Positions 3,106 through 7,390 of a stretch of 7,390 bases of DNA are shown piece by piece; within the stretch, counting starts at the first letter, position 1; each line of letters starts with the position of its first letter. Source of the DNA: Promethearchaeota archaeon (GTDB taxonomy: Archaea > Asgardarchaeota > Lokiarchaeia > Sigynarchaeales > SOKP01). Below the pieces are notes generated by a model, which saw only the letters and a program-made list of their open reading frames with translations, made no database searches and was not told where the DNA came from. The DNA lies in NCBI GenBank assembly GCA_016839655.1, contig JAEOTW010000017.1, forward strand, positions 1-7,390, in the 5' to 3' direction. A program made the translations under genes and the position numbers.

Positions 3106-3600
3106 TCACTTTATCTTCTCCATATCGTTTATTATAGATTTGATATGTGGGACACTTTGTAGATAGAAATTTACGATTTCAGAAATAGTTTTGAAATTTT
3201 CATACTGTTCAAATTCAGTATTATTTTCTTCAATTTGTTTTTTAATTTGTTTAAAACTTAATTCCCATTTTTTAACCACATTAAGAAATTCTGAGATATA
3301 AGGAAATAGGGATAATTTTGCAGATTTAATATGATAATGTGTTTGAGAACCTTTTGTAGGTTGTTTTTCAATATACCCTAAATATATAAGTCTATTTAAT
3401 TCTCGGGATATTTTACCAGTAGATAACCCAGTTAAATCTTTCAAATCCTTTTGAGTTAAAACTCTTCTTGTTAAAAAATAACCCAACACCAATAAACTGA
3501 TGGTATCTTTTCCAGAAAATAATCTTGAATTCATTATGAAGTTAATAATATCATCTTCAATTTTTTTTACCTTTGGATTGAAAATATCTATCTCTGTCAT
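3106..3600 (-). CDS. GbsR/MarR-family winged-helix regulator, downstream paralog
   Basis: 164 residues, ATG start at 3600, TGA stop. A predicted helical N-terminus (residues 9-45) leads into a winged helix-turn-helix at about 48-79 (LTQKDLKDLTGLSTGKIS, then LNRLIYLGYIEK), with a short wing around 80-92 (KGSQTHYHI). A long charged helical tail (95-164) is probably for dimerization. The pattern LTQ..L..L...S.G.IS..LN....G.IEK is that of GbsR-type MarR relatives, DNA-binding repressors or activators that respond to small molecules. It lies 18 nt after its paralog on the same strand, almost certainly in one operon, with no clear Shine-Dalgarno. The pair diverges from the corrinoid methyltransferase operon, which is the likely target. 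No metal- or cofactor-binding motif shows; the effector is unknown. Confidence 0.8.
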   Translation of the reverse strand: MTEIDIFNPKVKKIEDDIINFIMNSRLFSGKDTISLLVLGYFLTRRVLTQKDLKDLTGLSTGKISRELNRLIYLGYIEKQPTKGSQTHYHIKSAKLSLFPYISEFLNVVKKWELSFKQIKKQIEENNTEFEQYENFKTISEIVNFYLQSVPHIKSIINDMEKIK

Positions 3601-3618: not shown

Positions 3619-4110
3619 TTATTTGAGAGTCAATTCTAAATGACGGTCTAAAATATCTCCAAAATTTTGTAAATACTGCTTCATTTCTTTAATATTTTCT
3701 ATAAGAGTTTCTACATTTTTATTCTCTCGATATATTGCTAAATCCATCTCCTTAATCTTTAAAAATTCTATAAAGTTAAGTGCATGTTCTAAACTTAATG
3801 AGATACCGCGTTCAACATTAAAAATTGGGCTAGATAATGAATAACTAGTTATTTTTTTCCTTTTCCCCTTAATCAATTTCTTCTCCACCATTCCCATACT
3901 TAACATTGCGTTTAAATTTGTGGATATTGAACCTACGGAAATTTTGGATAGTTCATGTAATCGTTGTTGCGTGAGTGATCTATAAATAGATAAATATCCT
4001 GAAATAGCTGCAATTTTCGACGATTGTCCTCTTGATAAGCCATATTCTATAAAGAAGTCAATAACTTGCGCTTCGATTTCGCCGAATTTAGGGGTATGAT
4101 TTTCAACCAT
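3619..4110 (-). CDS. GbsR/MarR-family winged-helix regulator, upstream paralog
   Basis: 163 residues, ATG start at 4110, TAA stop. It has the same layout as its neighbour: N-terminal helices (9-44), a helix-turn-helix at about 46-77 (LTQQRLHELSKISVGSIS, then LNAMLSMGMVEK), a basic wing (KGKRKKITSYSL, 81-92), and a C-terminal helical region to 163. The shared spacing and residues show the two genes arose by duplication, but they have diverged strongly, which would allow different ligands or a heterodimer. It is the first gene of the minus-strand operon, 151 bp from the start of the corrinoid protein gene, so it can control both directions from the shared region. No Shine-Dalgarno is seen before the ATG; a TATA-like box about 40 bp upstream fits a short leader. 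Confidence 0.82.
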   Translation of the reverse strand: MVENHTPKFGEIEAQVIDFFIEYGLSRGQSSKIAAISGYLSIYRSLTQQRLHELSKISVGSISTNLNAMLSMGMVEKKLIKGKRKKITSYSLSSPIFNVERGISLSLEHALNFIEFLKIKEMDLAIYRENKNVETLIENIKEMKQYLQNFGDILDRHLELTLK

Positions 4111-4261: not shown

Positions 4262-4903
4262 ATGACTCAAAATGTAATTTTAACAGACTTAAAGAAAGCT
4301 GTTCTTGAGGGTGATGACGAAATCGCTCAGGAACTTGCTCAGAAAGCTTTAAACCAGGGAATTAAACCAATAACTATTGTAAACCAAAGTGTCATCCCTG
4401 GAATTCAAGAAGCTGGAGAGTTATGGAAGCAGAACGAATATTTTCACACAGATATTATTTTATGTGCTGAAGCTTTCCGATTAGCTATGGAAATCATCGA
4501 ACCAAAGCTTATGGCCGGAGACAGAGGGACTTCAGGAAAAATAGTAATTGGAACGGTTGCGGGGGATATGCATAATTTAGGTAAAATCATGGTTAATGCT
4601 ACTCTTCGAGGAGGAGGTTTCGAAGTTATTGATTTGGGAGAAGATGTATCAAAGGAGGTCTTCATTAAAACAGTTAAAGAAGAAAAACCTGATATCTTGG
4701 GTTTAGGATGTTATATGACGACAACCATGCTCGAGATGAAAGAAATAGTCAAACATCTTGAAAATGAAGGATTGAGAAACAGTGTTAAAGTTTTAATTGG
4801 TGGAGTACCTTGTACTCAAGAATTTGCTGATGAAATAAAAGCTGATGCTTGGGGTAAAGACGCATTTGATGCCGTAGAAAAAGCGAAAGAGGTTATGGGG
4901 TGA
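4262..4903 (+). CDS. corrinoid (B12-binding) methyl-carrier protein, MtaC/MtbC-like
   Basis: 213 residues, the usual size. The N-terminal helical cap (about 1-85; LKKAVLEGDDEIAQELAQKAL, then VIPGIQEAGELW) is followed by a B12-binding Rossmann domain from about 93. The cobalt-binding signature D-x-H-x-x-G is present as DMHNLG at 102-107, with His104 the lower cobalt ligand. Further marks are LGCYMTTTM at 147-155, in the place of the usual Ser/Thr segment, and GGVP at 160-163. It carries a methyl group on cobalt between a substrate-specific methyltransferase and an acceptor methyltransferase, in the cytoplasm. The next gene, starting 6 nt later, is a UroD-type methyltransferase and the natural partner. 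Which methyl donor is used cannot be read from the carrier. No reductive activator or second methyltransferase is in the window. Confidence 0.93.
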   Translation: MTQNVILTDLKKAVLEGDDEIAQELAQKALNQGIKPITIVNQSVIPGIQEAGELWKQNEYFHTDIILCAEAFRLAMEIIEPKLMAGDRGTSGKIVIGTVAGDMHNLGKIMVNATLRGGGFEVIDLGEDVSKEVFIKTVKEEKPDILGLGCYMTTTMLEMKEIVKHLENEGLRNSVKVLIGGVPCTQEFADEIKADAWGKDAFDAVEKAKEVMG

Positions 4904-4909: not shown

Positions 4910-6490
4910 ATGGCTCAAACAGGAGAAAGGAAAAAGGATTTAGGAAGTGTTCTTTCAGTTGGTGATAAAAGGCATATTGCTATTTCAGCTCAATGCCATG
5001 ATCATGTAATGTATCTAGCAGAAGTTCCAGCTAAAACCTTTTTTACTGATTTTAATTTAAATTTTGAAATAGGAGGATTAGTGGGAAAATATTATGATTT
5101 AGATGGTCCAGCAGGAGGATATGATTCCTATGATTTAGAAGTAGAAGCGTTAGGAGGGAAATTAATTTATGGCGAAAATTCTATGCCTACTATTGATTTC
5201 CGTCAACCGTTAATTAAGAATTATGAAGATTTAGAAAAATTAAAAAACAAAAAAATCGATTTTTATAATGCTGGACGCTTTCCGAAAATCTTAAATACTA
5301 CAGGCTCAGTGGCGGCTGGAGTGTGCATATTCTGCTCCCCTTTTAGCTTAGCAGTTGGATTGATGGGATTTCCAAAACTCATTAGAGCAATGAAAAAGGA
5401 GCCAGAATTATATCAGGGAGTAATGAGTTTCGTTGTCGATGATGTTTTAGCACCTTGGATTAGGATACAAAATGAGAAAACAGGTAATTTAATGGGAATA
5501 GGAGCTGATGCATGGGCTAGTGTACCAAATCTATCCCCCAAAGAGATGATGGACTGGATAGTCCCCTATAATCAACGACTCGAAAAGAAATGCAACGAAT
5601 TTGGAGTAATCACGATGAACGTGACAGCAGACTATTGTGAAGAACGATTAGATAAATTTGATGAGAAAATACTTCATGATAGTTTTGATGTACAAATTGC
5701 AAGCATGGGTGGTAACCCCGCATTGTTCTTAGCCATGGGTCGATGGCATGAATACCCTCTCGAAGCAGTACGTAATTACACTGAAAAATTTCGAAAAGAA
5801 GGTAAAACCGTGTCGATTACAGCAGGGATAAATGCTCGATTGCTCCGTAATGGGCCCATAGAGAAAATTGTAGATAATGTTAAAAGATTCGTTGATGCTT
5901 TTGGAAGAGATCATAACCTAAGTATTCTCTTATCAAACGTTCCTGCAGACACTCCTTCGGAACACATTCACGCGGCTGTAGCCGCAGCTCATACTTATGG
6001 AAAGCTCCCTATCGCAGATAACCTAAATGAAATTCAAGTAAAAATTCCAACAAAGAAACCTTTTAAAGAATGGAGAATTGAGAATGAATCTATTATAAAT
6101 GCTCAATTGAAAGAAGAAGCTAAAGAACAACGATTCGGTCTTGCAGGATTATTATGGCAACAGTTGGGACAGATAAATCAAAATGAAAAATTCAAAGAAG
6201 AATATGCCGATGCAAAAATGAGTTTCCTCTACAATCTTACTGACCAAAGATATAGTGCGCTAATTAAGATTGAAAATGGAACTCTAGATGTAAAACATAT
6301 AGAAAATGATAGTGATACTATAAAAAATATTGAAGTTGATGGTTCAATAGCTTGTACTGCCAAATTATTTTTTGACTTCACTGGTGGAAAGATTTCTAAG
6401 GTTAGTATGATAATAAAAATGCTCACGGGAAAGTTGAAAGTTAAAGGCATGAAAAATATGCAAGAATTAGCCAAAATTATGGCTTTATAA
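4910..6490 (+). CDS. UroD-type corrinoid methyltransferase fused to an SCP2-like lipid-binding domain
   Basis: 526 residues, against about 340-380 for ordinary MtaA/MtbA or uroporphyrinogen decarboxylase relatives. Residues about 20-370 form the UroD-type TIM barrel: GGKLIYGENSMPTIDF at 82-97, the Asp/Trp-rich stretch GIGADAWASVPNLSPKEMMDW at 196-216, and the closing ADTPSEHIHAA at 346-356. The adjacent corrinoid gene argues for methyl transfer to or from cobalt rather than haem synthesis. The H-x-C...C zinc triad of MtaA/MtbA is not evident: Cys243 (TADYC) is present, but the late Cys position reads SNVPADTP. Residues about 405-526 match the sterol carrier protein 2 pattern: an FGLAGLLWQQL helix, an INQNEKFKE helix, a central beta sheet, and the typical ending TGKLKVKGMKNMQELAKIM. 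SCP2 domains bind lipids or acyl chains, so the substrate may be hydrophobic (inference). No signal peptide. Transcription probably ends at the A9/T10 tract 18 nt downstream. Confidence 0.85.
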   Translation: MAQTGERKKDLGSVLSVGDKRHIAISAQCHDHVMYLAEVPAKTFFTDFNLNFEIGGLVGKYYDLDGPAGGYDSYDLEVEALGGKLIYGENSMPTIDFRQPLIKNYEDLEKLKNKKIDFYNAGRFPKILNTTGSVAAGVCIFCSPFSLAVGLMGFPKLIRAMKKEPELYQGVMSFVVDDVLAPWIRIQNEKTGNLMGIGADAWASVPNLSPKEMMDWIVPYNQRLEKKCNEFGVITMNVTADYCEERLDKFDEKILHDSFDVQIASMGGNPALFLAMGRWHEYPLEAVRNYTEKFRKEGKTVSITAGINARLLRNGPIEKIVDNVKRFVDAFGRDHNLSILLSNVPADTPSEHIHAAVAAAHTYGKLPIADNLNEIQVKIPTKKPFKEWRIENESIINAQLKEEAKEQRFGLAGLLWQQLGQINQNEKFKEEYADAKMSFLYNLTDQRYSALIKIENGTLDVKHIENDSDTIKNIEVDGSIACTAKLFFDFTGGKISKVSMIIKMLTGKLKVKGMKNMQELAKIMAL

Positions 6491-6731: not shown

Positions 6732-7390
6732 TTGGCTCAAAAAAATATTTATGAGTATGATGCTAAAAAGCTCATAGCGCACGAATTACCAAAATACTTT
6801 CCAGATTTTAATTACCATAACAAGTTAGTAGTTATTGACTGTGAGACTGATTTAGATAAAGCAATTATAGAAAATCCATGGGTAAACACTGAAAAAGTCG
6901 TTGTTAAACCTGACCAACTCTTTGGAAAAAGAGGGAAGGCAAATTTACTCTTGTTAGACGCAAACTGCGACGAAATGAAAGATTTTTGTTATAGTAATTT
7001 AGACAGAGTTTGCGAAATTGGTAACGTAAGGGGCGCTTTGAAACGCTTACTTGTAGAACCTTTTATACCCCACGAAAAGGAGTATTATGTTTCCATTACA
7101 ACTGAAAGAGATGGTGATGTTATCCATTTTAGTTTTGAAGGGGGTATTTTCGTAGAAGAAAATTGGGATAAAGTTATTCATATACCCGTACCTATAGGAA
7201 CTGATATTACTTCGTTCGATATAGAAGGTAAGATGCCCGATTTAGGAAGTTCTAAAAATCTTTTGATATCATTTATAAAAGGGCTTTACCAAGTGTTTAT
7301 TGATCAAGATTTTACTTTTCTTGAAATCAATCCTTTCGCAATCACTGAGGATAATAAAGTTGTACCTTTAGACGTTAAAGCTAGACTAGA
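6732..7390 (+). CDS. ATP-citrate lyase, ATP-grasp (small) subunit, 3'-truncated by the window edge
   Basis: 219 complete codons from a TTG start. A TAA at 6714-6716 in the same frame leaves TTG as the only conventional start before the conserved N-terminus (IYEYDAKKL). ATP-citrate lyase cleaves citrate with CoA and ATP to acetyl-CoA and oxaloacetate; this subunit supplies the ATP-grasp and citryl-CoA synthetase part. Visible signatures are NPWV at 48-51, VVVKPDQLFGKRGK at 56-69 (nucleotide-binding lysines), VEPFIPHEKEYYV at 108-120, a GGIFVEENWDK block, and FTFLEINPF at 194-202, followed by PLDVKARL. The KPDxLFGKRGK and EENWDKV blocks resemble plant ACLA, the separate-subunit form of about 420 residues; naming differs between lineages (plant ACLA, bacterial AclB), so no symbol is given. 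Succinyl-CoA synthetase beta is a more distant relative. The catalytic-His large subunit would be expected to the right of the window. The gene has its own promoter. Confidence 0.9.
   Translation, partial: MAQKNIYEYDAKKLIAHELPKYFPDFNYHNKLVVIDCETDLDKAIIENPWVNTEKVVVKPDQLFGKRGKANLLLLDANCDEMKDFCYSNLDRVCEIGNVRGALKRLLVEPFIPHEKEYYVSITTERDGDVIHFSFEGGIFVEENWDKVIHIPVPIGTDITSFDIEGKMPDLGSSKNLLISFIKGLYQVFIDQDFTFLEINPFAITEDNKVVPLDVKARL

Follow-up and report, generated by a model that had tools for sequence, protein, structure and literature searches.

The corrinoid methyl-transfer systems described in the sources drawn on here act on small donors, namely methoxyaromatics, methylamines, methanol and haloalkanes (PMC8630106, PMC8359953 and PMC13222342, cited here and below from excerpts). 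A gene in the genome of a Promethearchaeota archaeon (Asgardarchaeota; Lokiarchaeia; Sigynarchaeales; SOKP01) raises the question of why an enzyme of such a system would carry a sterol carrier protein 2 (SCP2) fold at its C-terminus. The stretch of DNA analysed, referred to as the window, comprises the 7,390 nucleotides at positions 1 to 7,390 of contig JAEOTW010000017.1 (assembly GCA_016839655.1), and the gene in question, at 4910..6490 on the forward strand, encodes a probable vitamin-B12-dependent methyltransferase of 526 amino acids in which a UroD-type barrel and an SCP2 fold are fused. This UroD-SCP2 protein is most likely the first methyltransferase (MT1) of an Asgard corrinoid system resembling the archaeal Mto system, with an SCP2 domain that would capture a hydrophobic methyl donor. 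The observed basis consists of the two folds themselves, the adjacency of a corrinoid-protein gene, three five-gene clusters, the conserved association with SCP2 and the absence of the zinc ligands of MtaA. The association with SCP2 hints at a greasy methyl donor rather than the usual small, water-soluble molecules, and we assign a probability of about 0.5 to the presentation of such a donor to the barrel as the role of the SCP2 domain, ahead of a structural role and, after that, a biosynthetic one; the least certain element is that the SCP2 cavity would hold the donor.

A UroD barrel with an SCP2 tail

A sequence-only reading of this gene had proposed a corrinoid-linked methyltransferase of the UroD type whose barrel occupies about the first 370 of the 526 residues. 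The proposal is borne out by a match to PF01208 above the cut-off and by a predicted UroD-type barrel at about residues 10-375 (4937..6034), which is followed by a linker that includes a helix at 385-405 (6035..6130) and by the SCP2-fold domain at residues 408-526 (6131..6487), all on the forward strand. By fold comparison the best structural match of the barrel is 4ay7/4ay8. Profile alignment with seven Asgard proteins of the MtaA/CmuA type extends over 320 columns at a probability of 98.8, and the MtaA/CmuA family model TIGR01463 yields 30.2 bits, far below its cut-off of 235.4. The barrel is the same as that of MtaA, MtbA and CmuA, but with the three MtaA zinc-ligand positions replaced: the H, C and C of the H-x-C...C arrangement align to N237, T239 and S342, columns in which H or C occurs in 12, 0 and 0 of 80 rows, in keeping with the earlier suspicion of an incomplete zinc triad and an unusual subfamily. 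Four residues beyond T239, C243 is kept in 71 of the 80 rows, and its conservation leaves room for an altered metal site in the barrel. Residues D31, Y62, E77, E79, R123, W202, Y242, E244, E245, R313 and N343 are invariant in the same 80 rows, H32, H352 and H354 show one variation each, and positions E245, D260 and E281 are acidic in 80, 79 and 79 rows, respectively. These three acidic residues share the spacing of the zinc motif of O-demethylases (E-X14-E-X20-H), with a different last residue, and they are offered as a lead only. Not all relatives depend on zinc: CdmB, as described in the excerpted account, functions without it (PMC13222342).

Structure comparison with the whole chain listed matches for the barrel only, and the C-terminal domain was therefore modelled separately. 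The structure alignment took in 95 rows selected among the listed proteins. At E ≤ 0.001 the domain alone has 36 Foldseek matches, 25 of them SCP2-type and 11 alkylsulfatase-type chains, which agrees with the SCP2-like fold that had been proposed from the letters; neither the model nor the matches indicate an unrelated fold for residues 400-526. By sequence, PF02036 reaches 14.1-14.6 bits on the window domain alone, below the Pfam gathering score of 21.3, and matches 9 of 10 stand-alone relatives, every one below cut-off, with 26.3 bits, above cut-off, on an aminotransferase fusion that carries the same domain family (locus L060). Comparison of profile with profile (hhalign) against 10 Asgard PF02036 proteins gave a probability of 93.5 and an E of 2.3e-7 over 91 columns, and alignment with the SCP2 domain of human MFE-2 and with UbiJ shows 16% and 11% identity. 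Searches of solved structures gave no match at E ≤ 1 with the whole-protein sequence, three matches only (E 0.38-0.71, including one UroD) with the whole-protein profile, and three (E 0.07-0.88, none of them SCP2) with the C-terminal profile; among the structure searches, the fold comparison alone is informative for the identity of the domain. The C-terminal domain is thus assigned to the SCP2 fold, weakly by sequence and firmly by its predicted fold. Pfam matches to Alkyl_sulf_C are consistent with this fold; matches to AsmA and 2B_soluble on the domain were judged to be chance because no structure match backs them. Among alkylsulfatases, Pisa1 and SdsA1 have C-terminal domains that match the SCP2-fold part, together with an unrelated catalytic domain, and are not known to have a corrinoid partner.

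Repeated fusion and splitting

The whole-protein search found 164 relatives, and the figures given here rest on the best 120 of these. The closest 47 are 53-94% identical to the window protein, and the SCP2 domain is present in all 43 that were examined, four partial or short sequences (P0031, P0033, P0034 and P0037) having been left out. Those of the 47 that are named by organism come from Asgard archaea, one labelled merely 'archaeon', and the closest among the best 120 is P0001, a Lokiarchaeota protein with 94% identity (locus L001). One relative, P0036, is annotated 'uroporphyrinogen-III decarboxylase/putative sterol carrier protein', and the architecture has in this sense already been annotated automatically.

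The occurrence of the two parts as separate genes in sister lineages lends some colour to the idea that the fused chain is an artefact, in which assembly or gene calling joined two neighbouring genes, yet the counts make this extremely improbable. On a tree of the UroD part, built from 113 of the best 120 relatives, the window and five loci (the same four sequences and three under 364 amino acids being omitted), 44 of the 119 rows, window included, are fused, and they derive from several sources. Across the UroD-SCP2 junction 42 rows align, again including the window, and among Asgard genomes 9 fused copies occur in 8 genomes. An assembly fusion, which the sequence-only reading had itself considered, is rejected by these counts. 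Every fused row falls inside a single 68-row set of the UroD tree (support 97), and the fusion label requires 6 changes on that tree, at least 4 of which are forced by supported branches. The SCP2 tree, which took 28 of the 44 fused rows and has few columns, shows fused and stand-alone rows intermixed.

Of 227 Asgard genomes, 14 contain matches to the UroD subfamily at E ≤ 1e-60, 16 in total. Besides the 9 fused copies there are 5 unfused, one cut by a contig end (genome G103, locus L091, with a corrinoid-like gene upstream) and one distant match, and an additional fused fragment lies at a contig edge in G144. All five unfused UroD genes have a stand-alone SCP2 gene in their cluster (L009, L074, L072 and two copies in L071), not adjoining the UroD gene in L009 and L074, and this extends the case beyond the earlier reading: the SCP2 protein is a component of the cluster also where it is a separate gene. 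A paralogue control covered 12 of these genomes, in which PF01208 has at least 154 matches and this SCP2 family 35. On contigs that hold both, 14 subfamily UroD genes lie 0.1-3.3 kb from an SCP2-family match; among the matches listed on shared contigs, which are short, no other UroD paralogue comes closer than 21.4 kb, and in the 12 genomes this SCP2 family has no other listed UroD paralogue within 20 kb on the same contig. That the two parts have repeatedly been fused or split, and are co-located when separate, is a good argument that they work as partners.

The SCP2 family itself was also followed. With the C-terminal domain as query, 20 matches were obtained, including stand-alone proteins of about 130 amino acids, and a wider SCP2-domain profile gave 153, with those named by organism among the best 120 all from Asgard archaea. 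The locus tag of one SCP2 match, P0132, adjoins that of P0048, which belongs to the same naming series and is a UroD without the fusion. A profile made from 11 close members of the family has matches in 102 of the 227 Asgard genomes. Two side observations concern the wider family: P0131, a member of the Asgard SCP2 family labelled as from a Nanopelagicaceae bacterium metagenome-assembled genome, is probably mis-binned, and canonical SCP2 (PF02036) is found in 100 of 119 Asgard genomes with a maximum of 13 matches per genome, a large expansion.

The presumed corrinoid partner and the likeness to known systems

Just upstream of the fused gene, at 4262..4903 on the forward strand, is the gene for a corrinoid protein of the MtgC/MtbC type, the presumed methyl acceptor and partner. 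Pfam identifies B12-binding (E 1.3e-25) and B12-binding_2 (E 4.1e-18), and MtgC models match at E 9e-58, yet below cut-off. The corrinoid link that had been drawn from this single neighbour holds more widely, as in all nine loci L001-L009 the UroD gene is immediately preceded by a corrinoid-type gene (truncated by the contig end in L004), which was called by likeness, with Pfam run on L009 only. In three loci, L009, L072 and L074, the corrinoid protein (its gene truncated by the contig end in L074), UroD, MtrH, a RACo-type activase and SCP2 are encoded in one gene run. The L009 MtrH matches PF02007 at E 4.4e-70. A link to glycine betaine was rejected as evidence on the substrate: MtgC models fall below cut-off on the corrinoid protein of the window and MtgA does so on the L009 MtrH, which instead passes an NCBIfam MtrH-family model (299.7 against 287). 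Matches to the choline regulator CudC on the two winged-helix regulators of the window are marginal.

These three loci contain the same four enzyme types as the Mto system of Methermicoccus shengliensis and Archaeoglobus fulgidus, in which MT1, a corrinoid protein, an MtrH-family second methyltransferase (MT2) and a reductive activase are clustered (MtoB/C/A/D); as described in the excerpts, MtoB moves the methyl group of a methoxyaromatic to MtoC, from which it is handed on by the MtrH-like MtoA, and MtoD restores the cobalt to its active state (PMC8630106, PMC8359953). The likeness drawn here is one of gene content; MtoB has been placed in the UroD superfamily (PMC13222342). The Asgard clusters differ in the addition of an SCP2-fold protein, fused or separate, and in having no major facilitator superfamily transporter among their open reading frames, as judged by eye. 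Homologues of mtoABC have been reported in a Lokiarchaeota genome, and these may or may not be the genes seen here (PMC8359953). The Cdm chloromethane system of Acetobacterium dehalogenans likewise combines a UroD-superfamily MT1 that works without zinc, a corrinoid protein and an MT2; compared by description, the excerpted account includes no SCP2 part, with CdmB taking its hydrophobic substrate via channels in the barrel, and Cdm homologues have been reported in Asgardarchaeota (Sigynarchaeales) (PMC13222342). Among the papers listed by a literature search, with most subscription journals outside its reach, none dealt with a UroD-SCP2 methyltransferase. Already known are UroD methyltransferases, the Mto-type cluster and SCP2 tails on enzymes; what is new, as far as seen, is the stable combination of UroD with SCP2 and the recurrence of SCP2 as a further component of the system in Asgard archaea.

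In the proposed system, the SCP2 domain, or the product of the separate gene in sister lineages, would capture a hydrophobic donor, or keep the demethylated product, and present it to the barrel. The UroD barrel would dock the corrinoid protein encoded just upstream and shift the methyl group of the organic donor onto its Co(I), an MT2 of the MtrH type would hand the methyl group to a tetrahydropterin one-carbon (C1) carrier, and a RACo-type activase would hold the cobalt reduced. For the fused enzymes, MtrH and RACo encoded elsewhere in the genome would serve; of the 12 genomes searched, 11 have an MtrH match and 11 a RACo match. The RACo matches in the operons on G009:C417 and G133:C201 each include one TGA that was read through.

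What the SCP2 domain may do

Genomic settings of the SCP2 family elsewhere lean towards lipids, short of proof. In L059-L066, from other Asgard genomes, a domain of the same SCP2-like family is C-terminal on class-III aminotransferase-type chains of about 580-600 amino acids; the L060 chain, on which alone Pfam was run, combines PF00202 (E 1.1e-69) with PF02036, adjoins an alpha/beta hydrolase and is possibly another lipid-handling enzyme. The domain is N-terminal to a probable multi-span membrane region, recognised by eye, in L067 (6323-7471) and L069 (68-1249 and 1463-2611), and the one of these that was tested, L069 68-1249, has no Pfam match. In L043 and L045 by Pfam, and in others by likeness, the SCP2 gene stands beside glycerophosphodiesterase (GDPD), ABC transporter and CoA-ligase-type genes. 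In L051-L055 a gene run recurs in which a stand-alone SCP2-like gene accompanies FAD-linked oxidase, Fe-S and CrtC-like genes, and some of these runs add a flavoprotein resembling geranylgeranyl reductases (named by eye, with Pfam on L051 only).

The occurrence of the family alone, on aminotransferases, on probable membrane proteins and in lipid-type neighbourhoods bears on a rival reading in which the SCP2-fold domain would have a structural role instead, as a lid or oligomerisation module giving shape to the mouth of the barrel or to the docking face for the corrinoid protein, without a ligand of its own; the substrate would then be an ordinary small methoxy, methylamine or haloalkane compound. 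These settings speak against that explanation, as does the separate SCP2 gene of the split clusters, which in two of them is not even a neighbour of UroD, and we consider it unlikely. A second possibility is that the chemistry runs in the biosynthetic direction, from a tetrahydropterin methyl group via MtrH and the corrinoid protein to UroD, which would methylate a hydrophobic molecule bound by SCP2, such as a lipid or quinone. Such methyl transfers are in general reversible in principle, and the GDPD, flavoprotein and CrtC-like neighbours of stand-alone SCP2 members could be read in this way; the described systems with the same parts list, however, are catabolic in the excerpts available (PMC8630106, PMC8359953). 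Redox catabolism is also in keeping with genes of the AOR, FrhB and (by eye) HdrA types close to the fused gene in L005, and with similar genes in L002 and L006 (Pfam having been run on L005 only), and a biosynthetic direction is more doubtful still than a structural role. The HdrA-like genes, recognised by eye, are split by an in-frame TGA after DDCSI in L005 (9408-11156) and L002 (9028-10710), which fits selenocysteine, a feature of Lokiarchaeota HdrA.

Presentation of a hydrophobic donor by SCP2 within an Mto-like system has several observations weighing against it. The tails of alkylsulfatases are the top structural matches of the domain, and their role may be structural. Five relatives named as Chloroflexota or Bacteroidota (P0070, P0080, P0089, P0092 and P0107; 385-421 amino acids, 48-53% identical) have no SCP2 in the chain, and SCP2 is therefore not needed for the core chemistry in these proteins. 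The distant UroD in G213 (33% identity) is accompanied by a corrinoid-like gene in a genome with no SCP2-family match, and the reverse is seen in G135, in which the 5.7-kb contig with a close SCP2 copy carries no UroD and the genome yielded none of the subfamily, either an exception or an assembly gap. Neither MtrH nor RACo is encoded near the gene in the window or in the fused loci L001-L008, and among genomes with a fused gene G004 is without an MtrH match and G003 without a RACo match.

Neighbouring genes

Divergent from the operon, on the reverse strand, is a tandem pair of genes for winged-helix proteins: a MarR-type protein at 3106..3600 (MarR_2 E 4.6e-6), which is a possible candidate regulator of the operon, and a second winged-helix-like protein at 3619..4110 with weak helix-turn-helix matches only. 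A similar tandem pair adjoins the operon in L003 (619-1113 and 1131-1622) and none was found in the seven other loci with upstream sequence (L001, L002 and L005-L009); with the pair present in one of eight such loci, the regulators do not count as conserved in the system. At 1421-2778 on the reverse strand of the window lies a dihydrolipoamide-dehydrogenase-like gene with an in-frame stop at 1850-1852 and no ATG start, and no such gene is present in L001 between the SH3-type and corrinoid genes. The first part of a gene for ATP-citrate lyase (PF24948 E 1e-61) lies at 6732-7388 on the forward strand, downstream of the methyltransferase gene; in L001 the fused gene is followed by an ATP-citrate-lyase-like gene at 7820-9115 and then by another large gene at 9117-10952.

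Implications for Asgard archaea

There is continuing debate over what Asgard archaea use as carbon sources in sediments; for these organisms, a conserved SCP2 partner would suggest that a C1 source is hydrophobic. A tentative extension is a corrinoid-dependent methylotrophy on lipid-like compounds, in which a dedicated SCP2 carrier would bring a water-insoluble methylated or methoxylated molecule, drawn from membranes or from sediment organic matter, to UroD. If true, this would be a class of C1 substrate used by none of the corrinoid systems described in the excerpts cited here. The repeated fusion and splitting of the two genes makes the UroD-SCP2 partnership directly testable, and the corrinoid protein, UroD, SCP2, MtrH and RACo form a concrete, expressible set with which a hydrophobic C1 source may be sought.
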